The notes beneath the pieces were generated by a model. It saw only the letters and a list, made by a program, of their open reading frames with translations, ran no database searches and was not told the origin of the DNA. Below are positions 26,448-43,245 of a stretch of DNA of 64,000 bases, in pieces. The position numbers were made by a program, and so were the translations under genes. The number at the start of each line of letters is the position of its first letter. Positions within the stretch are counted from its first letter, which is position 1. The DNA comes from Candidatus Zhuqueibacterota bacterium (GTDB lineage Bacteria > Zhuqueibacterota > Zhuqueibacteria > Oceanimicrobiales > Oceanimicrobiaceae), in NCBI GenBank assembly GCA_029262035.1, contig JAJDAE010000194.1, positions 1 to 64,000 of the forward strand, written 5' to 3'.

Positions 26448-28028
26448 ATGATACAATTGTTTCGAATGCGGGTTTATGGATCGCTCTTATTTTTGTTCTT
26501 TGGATGTATGTTACATTCAGTTCATGCCGGGCCGGAAAGCGGAAGCATAATTCGAAACATAAAAATAATCCGACAAAACGTATTTCCTGAAATTAATTCA
26601 AAGCCTGAATTTTTGTATAAGCTGGCAAATAAGCTGCACGTTGTTACTAAAGAAGATATTATTCAGAATGATTTGCTTTTTGATGAAGGGGATAAGTTTG
26701 AGCCTGATTTATTGGAAGAAAGCGAAAGAAAATTAAGAAGGCATCCTTATTTCGGGGAAGTGAAAATTGTAGCTCACCCGGTAGCAGCTGACTCCGTCGA
26801 TATTGAGGTAGTCACACAAGATCAATGGTCTACATTGACCTCGGCTATAATCGAAGGTGGTGGTGGAAGAACTACCTTGGGCGGCGCCTTGGAGGAGTTT
26901 AATTTACTTGGGTATGGGAAAAAAGTTTTTGCTGAAGTAAAACATGAACCAGAAGGCATCGGATTTACATTCCAGGCAGCAGATCCTCAGTTGTTTGGTT
27001 CGCGCTGGACAACAAGTGGTACCTATAGTTCAAGTCCTTTTAATGAGATTTATTCAGTACAATTAGCCAGACCTTTCTTTTCTTTGGATACAAAATGGGC
27101 AGGGGGTTTTTCCTTTTCAAATAGTAATCAAACCATAAGGCTCTTCGCAAATAGTGCAGAAGTGAGTCGCCTGGATTTTCAAAGTAAAAGTTTCCAAACT
27201 TTTGGTTCGAAAGCTTGGGGAGAACGCTACAAGAAAACCCGTTTGCAGATTGCTTATACTTTCCAGGAAAGAGATTTTTCAGAGATTACCGGACAAACCT
27301 TTACCACTGTCCCGGAAGATGAGCTGATTCATCGCATGACGGCATCGCTACGTTTCGAAGGACTTGCTTTTGTTGAAGATAAAAGGATTGACAATTTTGT
27401 AGTTACGGAGGATATAACTCTGGGCAACATTACACAAATCTCTTTAGGGCGAACTGGTCTGCCATTTCCGGCAGGTGTTAGGAGGTTTGAATTGAGACTT
27501 ACACAATCCCATGCCCATAAAATTTCCGGGAAACAGTATGTTTTTGGCGGAGTGGGATTTCGAACTCTCTTTGATAAAGATACCATAAGTTCCCTCAGCT
27601 TGCGTTACTATAACAAAATGTTTCCATTCCAAACCCTTGCTATGAATTTTAGAATGGATTATGCCAGTAATCTTGAAGAATCTACGCAGTTTTTATTGGG
27701 CGGCGACTCGGGACTTCGTGGTTTTGAAGCCCGGGCATTTACTGGCGCCCGAAGAATGATTGTTAATATTGAAAATCGAGTATTTACCAACCTGAATATT
27801 CTGACAGTAGCTTTGGGAGGAGTCGCATTTTTTGATACCGGAAATGTGTGGAAAGAAGGTGAAACTCTTAATTTAAGTCAACTCAATTCAAGCGTTGGTT
27901 TGGGATTAAGACTGGGATATACCAAATCCCCCAATTCCAGAGTTGGGCGCATTGATTTCGGTTTTCCTTTAAACCGCAAAGGTTTTGAAATTTCAATTGG
28001 TATTGGTCAACAGTTTTCTTTAAATTGA
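26448..28028 (+). CDS. BamA/TamA family (Omp85) outer membrane protein with POTRA
   Basis: POTRA-like LLEESERKLRRHPYFGEVKIVAHPVAADSVDIEVVTQDQWS; barrel motif LLGGDSGLRGFEARAFTGARRMIVNIENR. Confidence 0.85.
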   Translation: MIQLFRMRVYGSLLFLFFGCMLHSVHAGPESGSIIRNIKIIRQNVFPEINSKPEFLYKLANKLHVVTKEDIIQNDLLFDEGDKFEPDLLEESERKLRRHPYFGEVKIVAHPVAADSVDIEVVTQDQWSTLTSAIIEGGGGRTTLGGALEEFNLLGYGKKVFAEVKHEPEGIGFTFQAADPQLFGSRWTTSGTYSSSPFNEIYSVQLARPFFSLDTKWAGGFSFSNSNQTIRLFANSAEVSRLDFQSKSFQTFGSKAWGERYKKTRLQIAYTFQERDFSEITGQTFTTVPEDELIHRMTASLRFEGLAFVEDKRIDNFVVTEDITLGNITQISLGRTGLPFPAGVRRFELRLTQSHAHKISGKQYVFGGVGFRTLFDKDTISSLSLRYYNKMFPFQTLAMNFRMDYASNLEESTQFLLGGDSGLRGFEARAFTGARRMIVNIENRVFTNLNILTVALGGVAFFDTGNVWKEGETLNLSQLNSSVGLGLRLGYTKSPNSRVGRIDFGFPLNRKGFEISIGIGQQFSLN

Positions 28029-28065
28029 TTTTGTATAGTAACATGGTTGAAAAGCAGGAGAGTGG

Positions 28066-29436
28066 GTGAGTATTTTCATCAGAGCTTTGTGTTTCTTGTG
28101 TATTACATTATTTGTTTCGTTTGATGCAATTACATTTGCGAAAGAAAAGGGTAAGTCTACAGCAGAAACGGAAAACCAGCTCAATGAAACAGTGCACGAA
28201 GAAAGTTCGGACAGTTACCCAGATCCCAATACAATCCCATATCGCAGCAAAAAAAGTATAGCGCAACACGTACTTTCAATTCCTGCAAAGGTCTGGCGTT
28301 TAGCCTGGACTCCGCTCGGGGAAACAGTTATTTGGGTTGAACAAAATCGTATTCATAAAAAGGCAATAGACTTCTTTTATTTAAATGATGAAAGAAGCGC
28401 GGCGCTTTTTCCATTGGTTAGCCTTGGTGGCAATACCGGCGCCGGTGGCGGGGCAATGGCTTTCCATAATAATTTATTTGGAAAGCAGAAGCAACTTTTC
28501 GCACAGTTTCTATATAGTTCAACACGAAGCAATTCAGCAACCATTACTTATAAAGATTCTTCTTTCTTTGGTTCGTCTTTTTATATTGATGTAACCGGCT
28601 CATATTTTAATGATGCAGATGAAAACTTGTACATAAGTTCTAATGTAAGCCCTGAGGATTTAGATGAATCTTCAATTGGCGCCAATAATTCGGTAAAGGA
28701 TGATGAAACCAGTTACGCAACTGAAGAACTGGGGATTTTCTCAAACCTTAATTATGTTATTAATGACGAAATCGGACTTGGCATTGAAACCAGTTTTAGG
28801 CGGACAGATATTGACAGTGGCGACGGCCGGGGCGGAGACAGTTTTCCTGAAATTATTCAAGGTTCAGATGACGCAACACTTTTTTCTGTTGGCGGCACCA
28901 TGACTTTTAATTTTTCAAACGGTTGGCCGCGTATTCTATCCGGTTCGGTTTTCAAATTGGGCTATTCATATAATAATGAAGTGGGCGATAGCCGGTATGG
29001 CTATAATCGTCTGAAAGTGGAAGCACAGCAATTTATACCTATACCTTTTTTAACAACCAATCGCAGAATAGCCGTGCGCGGTGTTTATGAGCGGCTAAAT
29101 CGTCATGGTAGTCGACAAATCCCTTTTTATGAATTGAGTATGCTCGGTGATGCTTCAAATTTACGCGGCTTTGACCAGAACCGATACCGAGGCAGAGGCT
29201 CGCTGTTATTTAATTTTGAATATCGCTACCCTGTTTGGGATACCTGGGATGCTGTAATATTTGTTGATGAGGGCCAGGTATTCGATGAATCCGATAAACT
29301 TGACATCGCTAATTTTCATACCGCTATAGGCGCCGGCATCCGATTTATGTCACAAGCTGGTTTTTTAATGCGTTTTGAAATTGCAAAAAGTTCAGAGCAA
29401 TGGCGAGCACTTTTTCAAATTACACCGAATTTTTAG
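28066..29436 (+). CDS. BamA/TamA family (Omp85) outer membrane beta-barrel protein (GTG start)
   Basis: MLGDASNLRGFDQNRYRGRGSLLFNFEYRYPVWDTWDAVIFVDEGQVF. Confidence 0.82.
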   Translation: MSIFIRALCFLCITLFVSFDAITFAKEKGKSTAETENQLNETVHEESSDSYPDPNTIPYRSKKSIAQHVLSIPAKVWRLAWTPLGETVIWVEQNRIHKKAIDFFYLNDERSAALFPLVSLGGNTGAGGGAMAFHNNLFGKQKQLFAQFLYSSTRSNSATITYKDSSFFGSSFYIDVTGSYFNDADENLYISSNVSPEDLDESSIGANNSVKDDETSYATEELGIFSNLNYVINDEIGLGIETSFRRTDIDSGDGRGGDSFPEIIQGSDDATLFSVGGTMTFNFSNGWPRILSGSVFKLGYSYNNEVGDSRYGYNRLKVEAQQFIPIPFLTTNRRIAVRGVYERLNRHGSRQIPFYELSMLGDASNLRGFDQNRYRGRGSLLFNFEYRYPVWDTWDAVIFVDEGQVFDESDKLDIANFHTAIGAGIRFMSQAGFLMRFEIAKSSEQWRALFQITPNF

Positions 29437-31277: not shown

Positions 31278-32621
31278 ATGGAATCTAAAAATAAAAAGAG
31301 TCCTTTAGAACGCTTTCTGGGCGCTTTTGCCGATGTTAACCCCGGCGAGGGCATAACTGTTATCCTACTAACGTTCAACGTTTTTTTGGTTTTAACAGCT
31401 TATTATATAGCTAAGGTTGTACGGGAGCCTTTTATTTTAGCCGGTGGTGGTGCAGAATTAAAAAGTTATCTTGCTGCTGGACAGGTTCTACTTTTGCTCG
31501 GCGCAGTCCGTTTATATGCAGGGCTGGCTAACAAAGTCAATCGGTCACGATTAATAAATCTTGTAAATATTTTCTTTTCTGCTTGTCTGGTAGTTTTTTA
31601 CTTTTTAGCGCAAATGCAAGTACCGGGTCTTGGAATTATGTTTTTCCTTTGGGTTGGCATGTTTAATGTTATGGTTGTGGCTCAATTCTGGTCTTTTGCC
31701 AACGATGTTTACACGCCGGAAATGGGTAAGCGGCTTTTTGCAATTGTAGCATTTGGTGCCTCAGGCGGGGCAGTGCTTGGAAGCTATTTACCAAGAATTT
31801 TAATTGATGTTGTCGGCCTTAACCAGATGTTGTTAGTTGCGGCAGGCGTTTTGCTTCTCAGTCTCGTTATAACAAATTATATAGATTTACTCGATAAAAA
31901 AATTCCTGTTAAAAGCGGTGTCAGCCAACCTGAACCAGCGGTAAGGAGTGAAACTGGTAATTCCGGCGCATTTAAATTAGTTTTTCAGAAAAAGTACCTT
32001 TTAATGATCGCATTTTTAATTTTGATTTTAAATTGGGTTAATACCAACGGCGAGTATATTCTTGGCAGAATGGTCAAGGAAACAGCAGAAGTTCTTATCG
32101 CGAATGGTGAAAACATTGATATTAAAGCATACATCGGTAAATTCTACGCAGATTTCTTTACGGCTGTAAATATTCTAGGCGTGGTCATACAGCTTTTTCT
32201 GGTGTCAAGAATTCTAAAATATTTTGGTATCCGGGTTGCTATTTTAGCCCTGCCATGTATTGCTTTTATAGGCAATTTTTTCCTGTTCGCTGTCCCGGTC
32301 TTAAGTATCGTGCGATGGGCAAAAACTTTTGAAAATGCTACGGACTACAGTTTGAACAACACTGTCAGGCATGCCTTGTTTTTACCCACTACCCGCGAGG
32401 AAAAATATAAGGCAAAACAAGCGATTGATTCATTTTTTCATCGGTCTGGCGATGTACTGTCTGCATTGGTTGTTTTTATTGGATTTGAGTTTTTGTCGCT
32501 GAGTACAAAATATTTCGCGTTGTTTAATTTATTGTTAGTTGCTGTTTGGTTATACCTTGCATTCAAAATCGGCAAAGAAAATAGCCTACTGACAAATGAA
32601 GACTCTATTTCCAAACAATAG
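31278..32621 (+). CDS. Npt1/Npt2 (ATP/ADP translocase-like) or MFS-type transporter
   Basis: About 12 TM; YYIAKVVREPFILAGGGAELKSYLAAGQ. Confidence 0.72.
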   Translation: MESKNKKSPLERFLGAFADVNPGEGITVILLTFNVFLVLTAYYIAKVVREPFILAGGGAELKSYLAAGQVLLLLGAVRLYAGLANKVNRSRLINLVNIFFSACLVVFYFLAQMQVPGLGIMFFLWVGMFNVMVVAQFWSFANDVYTPEMGKRLFAIVAFGASGGAVLGSYLPRILIDVVGLNQMLLVAAGVLLLSLVITNYIDLLDKKIPVKSGVSQPEPAVRSETGNSGAFKLVFQKKYLLMIAFLILILNWVNTNGEYILGRMVKETAEVLIANGENIDIKAYIGKFYADFFTAVNILGVVIQLFLVSRILKYFGIRVAILALPCIAFIGNFFLFAVPVLSIVRWAKTFENATDYSLNNTVRHALFLPTTREEKYKAKQAIDSFFHRSGDVLSALVVFIGFEFLSLSTKYFALFNLLLVAVWLYLAFKIGKENSLLTNEDSISKQ

Positions 32622-32634
32622 TGATTTAAGACTC

Positions 32635-32685
32635 AACAAGGTTTCACAATGAAACCCCGAATAGTTTCATTGTGAAATCCTTGTT
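32635..32685. promoter_or_regulatory. Long inverted repeat made of two tandem GTTTCA-N3-TGAAAC-like dyads; terminator or enhancer (UAS) candidate
   Basis: AACAAGGTTTCACAATGAAAC / GTTTCATTGTGAAATCCTTGTT, 8-nt loop, one bulge. Confidence 0.7.
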
Positions 32686-32788
32686 TTCTCTATTTTCTTT
32701 CTTGGTACGAACTCCTCTTTTCTTGAATTACTGTAAGTTGTTGTTTTTTAAGTAGATTAAATTCTTTGTTCTGAATAAGAGTTTACAG

Positions 32789-32805
32789 TTGGCACGGTAG
32801 TTGTA
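32789..32805 (+). promoter_or_regulatory. Sigma-54 promoter candidate
   Basis: TTGGCACGGTAGTTGTA versus YTGGCACG-N4-TTGCW; only TTGT for TTGC deviates. Confidence 0.6.
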
Positions 32806-32815
32806 CTAACAAGAG

Positions 32816-32891
32816 CAATAACCGAGTTATTAAACTAGACCAGTAACTCCCCTAATTCTGGTTTGGTATAATGCTCGGTTTTTTATTTTTT
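32816..32891 (+). ncRNA. Candidate small RNA: long imperfect hairpin ending in a T-rich terminator
   Basis: AACCGAG/CTCGGTT, ATTA/TAAT and ACCAG/CTGGT nested pairs, then TTTTTTATTTTTT; no ORF; downstream of sigma-54 motif. Confidence 0.5.
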
Positions 32892-33036: not shown

Positions 33037-34182
33037 ATGATTGATTTTAGTTTGAGCGAAGAGCAAAAACAACTGCAAGACTTGTCAAAAGAATTCACGA
33101 ATAATGAAATCAAGCCAGTCGCAGCGGAGTATGACCGCAAGTCAGAATTTGCGCATGAGGTAATTAAAAAAGCTTGGGAGTTGGGACTGATGAACGTACA
33201 GATACCTGAGAAATTTGGCGGTATGGGACTCAGTGTACTGGACGACTGTATCATTGGCGAAGAGCTTTCTGTCGGATGCAGCGGTATCTCGACTTCGATG
33301 ATGTCCAACATGCTGGCGCAAGGTCCCTTGATTGTTGCTGCCAACGATGCCCAGAATAAGAAATTTTTAGGACAGATGGTTGAGGAGTGCGCTTTCTGCG
33401 CATACGCAGTAACCGAACCGGATGCTGGATCTGATGTGGCTGGTATTAAGAGCACAGCCCAAAAAGTGGGAAATGACTATGTACTTAACGGTCAGAAAAT
33501 GTGGATTACAAATGCAGCGCAAGCCAAGTGGTTTTTTGTTCTCGCCTACACAGACCAAAATGCCGGCTATAAAGGCATGACTGGCTTTGTTGTTCCCGCT
33601 GATTTACCAGGAATAACGATTGGTAAGCATGAACATAAATTGGGGCAGCGATCATCGGATACACGTGGCGTTACTTTTGATGATGTCAAGCTTTCGGCGG
33701 AAAACCGACTCGGCAATGAGGGAGATGGCTGGAAAATCGCCATGTCGGCATTTGATCACTCCCGGCCGGGAGTTGCGGCTGGTGCCGTAGGTTTGGCGCG
33801 ACGTGCGATGGAAGAATCCATTATGTATGCATCAGAGCGTAAAACCTTTGGAGTGCCAATTGCCAAACACCAGGCGGTTAGTTTTATGATTGCCGACATG
33901 GCAATGAATGTGGACGCCGCCCGACACCTGGTTTACAAATCAGCCTGGAAAACAGACAAAGGTGAGCGCAATACAATTGAAGCCGCTTTTGCCAAAGCCT
34001 TTGCTGCAGATACTGCTATGAAAGTAGCCACAGATGCCGTACAGGTTTTTGGTGGGTACGGTTATTCAGCCGAATATCCTGTAGAGAAATTGATGCGTGA
34101 TGCCAAAATATTTCAAATTTATGAAGGCACAAGTCAGATTCAACGGGTTATTATTGCGCGAGAATTGTTTCGTCGCCAATAA
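33037..34182 (+). CDS. Acyl-CoA dehydrogenase
   Basis: CAYAVTEPDAGSDVAGIKSTAQK, YGYSAEYPVEKLMRDAKIFQIYEGTSQIQR. Confidence 0.97.
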   Translation: MIDFSLSEEQKQLQDLSKEFTNNEIKPVAAEYDRKSEFAHEVIKKAWELGLMNVQIPEKFGGMGLSVLDDCIIGEELSVGCSGISTSMMSNMLAQGPLIVAANDAQNKKFLGQMVEECAFCAYAVTEPDAGSDVAGIKSTAQKVGNDYVLNGQKMWITNAAQAKWFFVLAYTDQNAGYKGMTGFVVPADLPGITIGKHEHKLGQRSSDTRGVTFDDVKLSAENRLGNEGDGWKIAMSAFDHSRPGVAAGAVGLARRAMEESIMYASERKTFGVPIAKHQAVSFMIADMAMNVDAARHLVYKSAWKTDKGERNTIEAAFAKAFAADTAMKVATDAVQVFGGYGYSAEYPVEKLMRDAKIFQIYEGTSQIQRVIIARELFRRQ

Positions 34183-41861: not shown

Positions 41862-43245
41862 AATCTTCTTCTCCTTGGTGGCCATCCGCTTTGTATTCAT
41901 TTAACTTATTTCTCAACGTTCTACCGGTAATCCCTAATTTTTGAGCGGCATGGGTTTTATTCCCGTTACTTTCTTTCAAAACCTTTAATATATAAAGTCG
42001 TTCAAGTTTTTTGAGTGTTAAATCATCGGGCAAATTTTCGCTCTGAGTTGTTTTATTTCTATAAATACCTTCCATATTATCTTCTAAAAAAAGATGTTTA
42101 GTTTTAATACTTCCTTCTTTACAAATAACAACTGCCCGCTCAATTGTATTTTCCAGTTCACGAACATTGCCCGGCCAATTATGTTTCATTAGTTTGTTCA
42201 AAGCTGATGCATCTATCTTTTTGACAGTCCTGTTATTTTGAGCAGAATATTTTTCAATAAAATGTCCAACCAGTAATGGAATATCTACTTTCCTTTCTTT
42301 TAAACGAGGCAAACGAATTGGAACTACATTTAATCGATAAAATAAATCTTCGCGAAAATTGCCTTCAGAAACTTCATTTTGTAATTTACGGTTTGTAGTA
42401 GCAACTATCCGGACATCAACTTTTATGGGTGTTGGGTTACCAACCTTTTCAAATTCCTTTTCTTGTAAAACGCGTAAAAGTTTTGTTTGCAGGTTAATCG
42501 TTGTTTCACTAATTTCGTCCAAAAGTAGTGTCCCGGCGTCAGCCATTTCAAACCGACCCTTTGTACTTCTTATCGCACCAGTAAAGGAACCCTTTTCGTG
42601 ACCAAATAATTCACTTTCTGCTAACCCTTCAGGTATTGCCGCCAAGTTGGTTTTAATAAAAGGCATATCTTTTCTATCACTTAACTGGTGAATTGCTTTT
42701 GCTATCACCTCTTTTCCTGTTCCACTTGCACCCTGTAATAACACGGTTGCATTTGTTGGCGCCACCATTTCGATCGTTTCAAAAACTTTTTTCATTTCCG
42801 GGCTATTCCCGACAATATTTTCTATATTATATCGTTTGCCCAACTCAAACTTAAGCTGTGCATTTTCTTTGACCAAGCGCTGATATTTAAAAAATTTGTC
42901 AACGGTTAACTCTATTTCATCCAGGGAAAAGCCTTTGGTTAAATAATCATACGCGCCTTCCTTTATAGCTTCAACTGCACTTTCTACAGAGCTATGCGCT
43001 GTAATTACTATAACACCGGTATCGGGATCTTTCTCTTTGGTTAACCTTAATATTTCAAGCCCGTTTAAATCGGGAAGATAAACGTCTGTAATAACAAGAT
43101 CGAAATGCTCTCTATTCAATAAATCGAGAGCAATTTTTCCATTGTCAGCAATTTTGATATTAAAAGGTTTCTTTTTGAGCACTTCATAAAGCATCCCGCT
43201 TATCATAGGCTCATCATCTATAACTAAAATATTGGGTTTATTCAT
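41860..43245 (-). CDS. NtrC-family sigma-54-dependent response regulator (REC-AAA+-Fis HTH)
   Basis: Start placed at MNKPNILVIDDEP; Walker A GASGTGKE; ESELFGHEKGSFTGAIRSTKGRFE (GSFTGA loop); C-terminal Fis-type HTH. Confidence 0.95.
   Translation of the reverse strand: MNKPNILVIDDEPMISGMLYEVLKKKPFNIKIADNGKIALDLLNREHFDLVITDVYLPDLNGLEILRLTKEKDPDTGVIVITAHSSVESAVEAIKEGAYDYLTKGFSLDEIELTVDKFFKYQRLVKENAQLKFELGKRYNIENIVGNSPEMKKVFETIEMVAPTNATVLLQGASGTGKEVIAKAIHQLSDRKDMPFIKTNLAAIPEGLAESELFGHEKGSFTGAIRSTKGRFEMADAGTLLLDEISETTINLQTKLLRVLQEKEFEKVGNPTPIKVDVRIVATTNRKLQNEVSEGNFREDLFYRLNVVPIRLPRLKERKVDIPLLVGHFIEKYSAQNNRTVKKIDASALNKLMKHNWPGNVRELENTIERAVVICKEGSIKTKHLFLEDNMEGIYRNKTTQSENLPDDLTLKKLERLYILKVLKESNGNKTHAAQKLGITGRTLRNKLNEYKADGHQGEED

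Follow-up and report, generated by a model that had tools for sequence, protein, structure and literature searches.

Small RNAs (sRNAs) under sigma-54 control are already known, namely CrcZ, GlmY, and the Qrr RNAs. CrcZ of Pseudomonas is an RpoN-dependent decoy sRNA placed under a two-component NtrC-type activator by the CbrA-CbrB system (PMC4063720). The cbrB gene lies directly upstream of crcZ. For GlmY, which is controlled by GlrK-GlrR in enterobacteria, an exchange between sigma-54 and sigma-70 promoters has been described (PMC7602753, PMC3162934). GlmY mimics the structure of another RNA, and it is about twice as long as the RNA reported here. The sigma-54-dependent Qrr RNAs of Vibrio are small RNAs of one family controlled by the NtrC-type regulator LuxO (PMC7602753, PMC11407668). 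They are multi-hairpin antisense RNAs that depend on Hfq. LhrC, RsaE, and IsrR are Firmicutes RNAs that are not known to be under sigma-54 control. For the uncultured phylum KSB1, no sRNA regulator has been described in the collections searched.

In this study, we analyzed a stretch of 64,000 nucleotides (the window) from a Candidatus Zhuqueibacterota bacterium (genome G000, contig JAJDAE010000194.1, positions 1 to 64,000), and conclude that it very likely holds a free-standing sRNA gene controlled by sigma-54 and an enhancer-binding protein (EBP), with transcription and the binding of the EBP to its dyads being inferred. To the whole reading, in which decoy action is the leading but not the exclusive activity of the RNA, we assign a probability of about 0.65.

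The elements of the locus all lie on the plus strand. The sigma-54 promoter TTGGCACGGTAGTTGTA (32789-32805), recognized by its fit to the -24/-12 sequence and by its conservation upstream of the RNA, has GG at 32791-32792; at 32803-32804 it has GT where GC would be ideal. The predicted RNA of about 75 nt spans 32816-32891; its start was placed 12 nt past the -12 position and its end at the T-tract, both being inferred from sequence without transcript data. It contains a long conserved hairpin (32820-32879), supported by covariation over 60 distinct rows and by its fold (-26 kcal/mol, z about -7, none of 200 shuffles being equally good), which also terminates the RNA via TTTTTTATTTTTT (32879-32891). 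The terminal loop UAACUCCCCUAAUU (32844-32857) is the proposed functional site. Upstream lie two dyads proposed as EBP sites, GTTTCA-CAA-TGAAAC (GTTTCACAATGAAAC, 32641-32655) and GTTTCA-TTG-TGAAAT (GTTTCATTGTGAAAT, 32664-32678), 23 bp apart from center to center and centered at about -168 and -145 from the predicted start. The promoter, hairpin, T-tract end, and dyads had all been proposed in an earlier note made from the sequence alone, and all of them held; its reading as an activator-controlled sRNA absent from the open reading frame track is supported, with transcription and activator binding undemonstrated. Unmentioned there was that the dyads double as the arms of one longer inverted repeat that includes their flanks (32635-32685, -28.1 kcal/mol, z -6.5). 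Outside the RNA gene, a gene for a TLC ATP/ADP-transporter-like or MFS protein (31278-32621, plus strand) is kept as the upstream neighbor in five genomes of the family, and the downstream neighbor, an acyl-CoA dehydrogenase gene (33037-34182, plus strand), is not conserved. Two consecutive Omp85-type outer-membrane genes, one with a POTRA domain, are found farther upstream (26448-29436 of the window), and the RNA of genome G005 likewise comes after a similar gene of outer-membrane type.

Compensatory changes across relatives show that this is a conserved structured RNA gene. A DNA search with the intergenic region first retrieved this segment with the hairpin from relatives belonging to several families, and a covariance model was built from six copies, using the RNA only and leaving the promoter out. 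Within the class, the model has matches in 49 of 63 genomes (E ≤ 0.1); across the phylum, which is candidate division KSB1, it has matches in 57 of 82 (E ≤ 0.01), with only one to three copies per genome. No match at E ≤ 0.01 was obtained in 38 non-KSB1 genomes, and among forty genomes from other sources the matches were confined to two KSB1 members, plus one weak match (E 0.05). Occurrence outside the phylum was therefore not accepted, the 38 genomes holding nothing convincing and this weak match standing alone. Each of the 22 pairs varies over the 60 distinct rows, two-sided changes being seen in 21, and pairing is kept in 85.6% of cells versus at most 46% when the partner is slid. Two-sided cells number 274 versus 98 in shuffles, with a score of 0.504 versus no more than 0.117 after sliding. 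As the alignment was fitted to the model, the covariation counts are biased toward it, but the slide control still differs widely. A known RNA family was rejected, as cmscan found no Rfam family at the gathering score and the matches below threshold were chance-like.

The hairpin occurs in several genomic settings. In the first it is free-standing, with -24/-12 just upstream at 12 loci in four families, the window's genome included; seven of these are single hairpins and five are double. In genomes G018, G013, and G008 (loci L135, L136, and L139), a double-hairpin RNA has a TTGACA/TATATT-like, sigma-70-like promoter in place of -24/-12, and a promoter switch is the likely explanation. The double-hairpin sigma-54 RNAs L141, L143, and L187 (G042, G021, and G024) have a common leader before the first hairpin, GCGCGTACGTAATTG, which looks unpaired and is conserved among them. 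In the second setting the hairpin sits behind rpsT, at a distance of 18-59 nt in most loci and of 80 nt in G015, and mostly faces guaB; rpsT was recognized by clustering at 26 loci, and its hairpin is also present in other classes of the phylum. In the window's own genome the rpsT hairpin (C282:1557-1622, minus strand, locus L193) lies directly behind rpsT, faces guaB, and has nearly the same loop as the sRNA. The loop GGUAACyCCCC(C)UAAUyCC, near-invariant across the family, is common to the sRNA and the hairpin just after rpsT throughout the phylum. In the third setting the hairpin follows a LuxR-type response-regulator gene beside a PAS-rich kinase, or groEL (loci L150, L157, L163, L190, and L191; L158 and L172). 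Neither Rfam nor the literature searched yielded the RNA family, its place in the phylum, or the loop that it has in common with the rpsT 3' hairpin.

A one-mismatch match to TGGCAC-N5-TTGC is not rare on its own, and a two-mismatch scan of the window gave 53 matches versus 46.5 expected. Therefore, the promoter claim rests on conservation: -24/-12 is found immediately upstream of the RNA at 12 independent loci, although the search model omitted the promoter. Its form is GG-N10-GT in the window, TGG..TTG is invariant in the seven solo copies, and five of the 12 sigma-54 loci have GC at -12. Tandem TTTCA-N3-TGAAA dyads, 20-25 bp apart and about 130-180 nt before the hairpin, are present in 11 of the 12 sigma-54 copies, the twelfth, in G027, having no tandem dyad. 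Each of the 11 pairs outscores at least 99.9% of 1,369 background 300-nt windows. The motif was derived from the window site and then scored on the other loci, and two of its positions were down-weighted after the relatives had been inspected, so that the test is nearly, but not fully, independent. While promoter and dyads are shown by this comparison, there are no binding data; conservation of the dyads at a similar distance is the behavior expected of bound activator sites. Our first reading, that the dyads are merely the arms of a terminator hairpin, was rejected as their main role because relatives keep the dyads without a long hairpin of the 32635-32685 type. It is possible that this repeat also terminates the upstream gene, in the window's genome only.

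These comparisons strengthen the case for an sRNA well beyond what a single sequence could give. According to the earlier note, the reading would have been refuted by a lack of -24/-12 and hairpin conservation in relatives, by the absence of rpoN, or by read-through as the 5' leader of the acyl-CoA dehydrogenase gene. Both elements are kept, rpoN is present (PF04552 at C366:3060-3536, E 2.1e-60), and read-through is not borne out by synteny. The covariance search across relatives that it proposed recovered the family as described above, and the proposed scan for the dyad over the 5.3-Mb genome returned, at 23-bp spacing and with up to two mismatches, no tandem site other than the window pair. 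A weaker tandem dyad with three mismatches was seen in the same genome at C49:19930-19965; a further EBP gene (C49:18539-19885, minus strand) lies about 45 nt away from it.

A response-regulator-type EBP of one clade is the likely activator of the sRNA, although its binding to the dyads is inferred. In G019, an NtrC-like EBP with receiver, sigma-54, and HTH_8 domains (PF00072, PF00158, and PF02954) is encoded directly before the dyads, promoter, and RNA, with a kinase gene upstream of it. The proposed activator in the window's genome is encoded outside the window (C283:23813-25153), and the GAFTGA motif is intact in both proteins. All 13 related EBPs, the closest relatives in the genomes searched, are shown to form one clade (support 99/97), and those of the window's family have a LGISKTTLWRKLK-like recognition helix. 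Of the five family EBPs, three depart from GAFTGA and have GAFTSA or GSFTSA. The sigma-54 contact loop is GSFTSA or GAFTSA in the EBPs of G002, G003, and G007 (L210, L213, and L209). The window holds another response-regulator EBP gene (41878-43233, minus strand), which is not favored as the regulator; its product is 39.5% identical to the proposed one, and its helix-turn-helix ends in LGITGRTLRNKLNEY rather than LGISKSTLWRKLK.

The distribution of the clade largely follows that of the dyads. Of the 11 dyad-bearing genomes, 10 have a clade EBP; G006, which is 70% complete, is the one without. None was recovered in G027, which has the RNA without dyads, nor in G008 and G013, which have the sigma-70-like promoter; G018 was outside this search. 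Among 22 genomes, G001, G004, G009, G014, G015, G023, G027, G008, and G013 had neither a clade EBP nor a dyad-bearing copy. Since absence was judged from best hits only, this is a tendency and not proof. G040 and G064 have a clade EBP, with dyads right after its gene, and no detected sigma-54 copy of the RNA; therefore, the EBP serves more than this RNA family. In G064, the two best sites of a scan at 23-bp spacing come after EBP genes. At locus L227 (G064, C53), about 190 nt past the EBP stop codon, a dyad and a sigma-54 site TTGGCACAGTAGTTGTT precede a different terminated RNA with exposed CCTCCTTA. This RNA was considered as a second family and rejected, its sequence being unconserved in other genomes of the phylum save for one short match.

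The genes around the EBP and the RNA are related to the cell envelope. Five genomes of the window's family have the EBP gene between an mlaD-ABC auxiliary lipoprotein gene pair and a lytic transglycosylase gene; in the window's genome a kinase gene follows. The RNA occupies the slot between mlaD-lipoprotein and lytic transglycosylase in G042, G021, and G024, follows mlaD-lipoprotein in G045 and G027, and precedes the transglycosylase in G008, G013, and G018; in G019, EBP and RNA come together before the transglycosylase. As the same cluster hosts the EBP, the RNA, or both, we consider the three to belong together although the RNA gene moves. These gene clusters are shown by the genomes, whereas the signal is inferred. 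A published survey ties sigma-54 to control of the cell exterior (PMC3162934).

In the mechanism that we propose, the EBP, probably paired with a histidine kinase, would on phosphorylation bind the tandem dyads about 145-168 bp upstream and, by DNA looping, open the sigma-54 holoenzyme at -24/-12. The signal may be envelope-related, given the neighboring genes for MlaD, ABC auxiliary lipoprotein, lytic transglycosylase, and histidine kinase. The predicted product would be a 75-nt RNA, essentially one long hairpin with its own terminator, that exposes UAACUCCCCUAAUU and acts through this loop. Its most likely action would be that of a mimic or decoy, competing for whatever binds the 3' hairpin of rpsT (ribosomal protein S20), most likely a protein. 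Three points lead us to prefer such a decoy role to antisense pairing: the sRNA and the rpsT hairpin both keep the whole loop and not merely its C-run, several lineages have doubled the hairpin within one RNA, and no perfect 12-nt complement is conserved in mRNAs. However, the decoy step taken alone could go either way, as it rests on argument: the binding partner of the loop is inferred, no RNA-binding protein partner is known, and the rpsT hairpin may be a terminator only. Against the main reading stand the lack of transcript data and the GT, not GC, at -13/-12 of the window promoter. The departures from GAFTGA in three family EBPs also count against it, as do G040 and G064 with their clade EBPs but no detected sigma-54 copy of the RNA. 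A bolder version, which we regard as speculative, is a phylum-wide, Hfq-independent circuit in which an unknown protein reads the C-rich loop of the rpsT mRNA 3' hairpin and is titrated by a loop-copying sRNA, sometimes doubled, made by an envelope-sensing sigma-54/EBP system. If true, it would couple the state of the envelope to ribosome or growth control.

The alternative that survives best keeps the RNA gene and its promoter but takes the C-rich loop to be antisense, its CUCCCC pairing with GGGAG or GGAG ribosome-binding sites to block translation in the manner of Listeria LhrC or the staphylococcal RsaE-type RNAs. This remains conceivable. The loop is C-rich and exposed, and Shine-Dalgarno sequences are of the GGAG/AGGAG/GGGAG type, with GGGAG occurring 14 times before starts versus 3 in the upstream background region and GGAGG 29 versus 6. 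Moreover, envelope stress acts on LhrC by way of a two-component system (PMC4132741). LhrC-type RNAs also show doubled loops. However, it is not the C-run alone that is conserved: the full 14-nt loop is, together with the pairs that close it, and this holds for the 3' hairpin of rpsT too. In 12 genomes a perfect 12-nt complement was found essentially only opposite the RNA itself, although shorter pairing is not excluded. A long antisense target was likewise rejected, the exact complement TTAGGGGRGTTA matching almost only the opposite strand of the RNA. The search for Hfq in 14 genomes was negative as well, although the control gave a signal. Many antisense RNAs work without Hfq.

Decoy action of a sigma-54-controlled sRNA remains our preferred reading, and the other alternatives fare worse. 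The hairpin might be merely an efficient terminator type of this phylum, ending a sigma-54 transcript without regulatory function: rpsT copies mostly lie 18-59 nt past the stop codon and mostly converge on guaB, and others come after groEL or response-regulator genes. We consider this very unlikely, because termination does not need an invariant 14-nt loop sequence, each genome has just one to three copies, some lineages keep two hairpins, and an own promoter with tandem activator sites would make no sense for such a 75-nt RNA. It is equally hard to sustain that the repeat at 32635-32685 is a terminator of the upstream transporter gene and not a pair of activator sites. Its fold of -28 kcal/mol is followed by T-rich DNA, but relatives lacking the long hairpin keep the dyads and their spacing, the dyads overlap the end of the EBP gene in G019, and in G042, G021, and G024 they come after a different gene. 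That the acyl-CoA dehydrogenase gene has the transcript as its 5' leader, in which the hairpin would be an attenuator, is all but excluded and was dropped for lack of synteny: this gene does begin about 145 nt farther downstream in the same orientation, but the downstream gene varies among relatives and is often on the opposite strand, and the related acyl-CoA dehydrogenase loci L022, L023, and L028 have no copy of the RNA.

Compared with the systems described at the outset, the locus combines familiar parts with an unfamiliar RNA. Like LhrC, RsaE, and IsrR, the RNA exposes a C-rich loop; unlike them, it is under predicted sigma-54 control, and it matches none of them in Rfam. As with Qrr, a single family of small RNAs is here predicted to answer to an NtrC-type regulator, but its hairpin is single or doubled, Hfq was not found, and there is no Rfam match. 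GlmY resembles it in combining sigma-54 with a response-regulator EBP in an envelope or envelope-precursor context, and also in the promoter exchange between sigma-54 and sigma-70 seen in G008, G013, and G018, although the GlmY and GlmZ models of Rfam gave no cmscan match to the window RNA. CrcZ provides the parallel of a two-component NtrC-type activator, a sigma-54 promoter, and an sRNA, with decoy action here only proposed, and G019, where the EBP gene immediately precedes the RNA gene, recalls the order cbrB-crcZ. However, CrcZ is long and A-rich and titrates Hfq, whereas we find one 75-nt hairpin with a C-rich loop in genomes where Hfq was not found; the window RNA has no A-rich Hfq-binding repeats of the CrcZ type, and no sequence relation to CrcZ was seen. 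What the locus offers is a complete predicted circuit of activator, enhancer sites, promoter, and RNA, with a target nearly unique in its genome and no Hfq found, and the loop shared with rpsT gives a direct handle on it, as the hairpin can be used as bait for its partner. By inference, it suggests a new circuit of RNA control with links to cell-envelope genes. A predicted sigma-54 sRNA module that follows a plan like those of CrcZ and GlmY, without matching either in sequence, exists far from the Proteobacteria.
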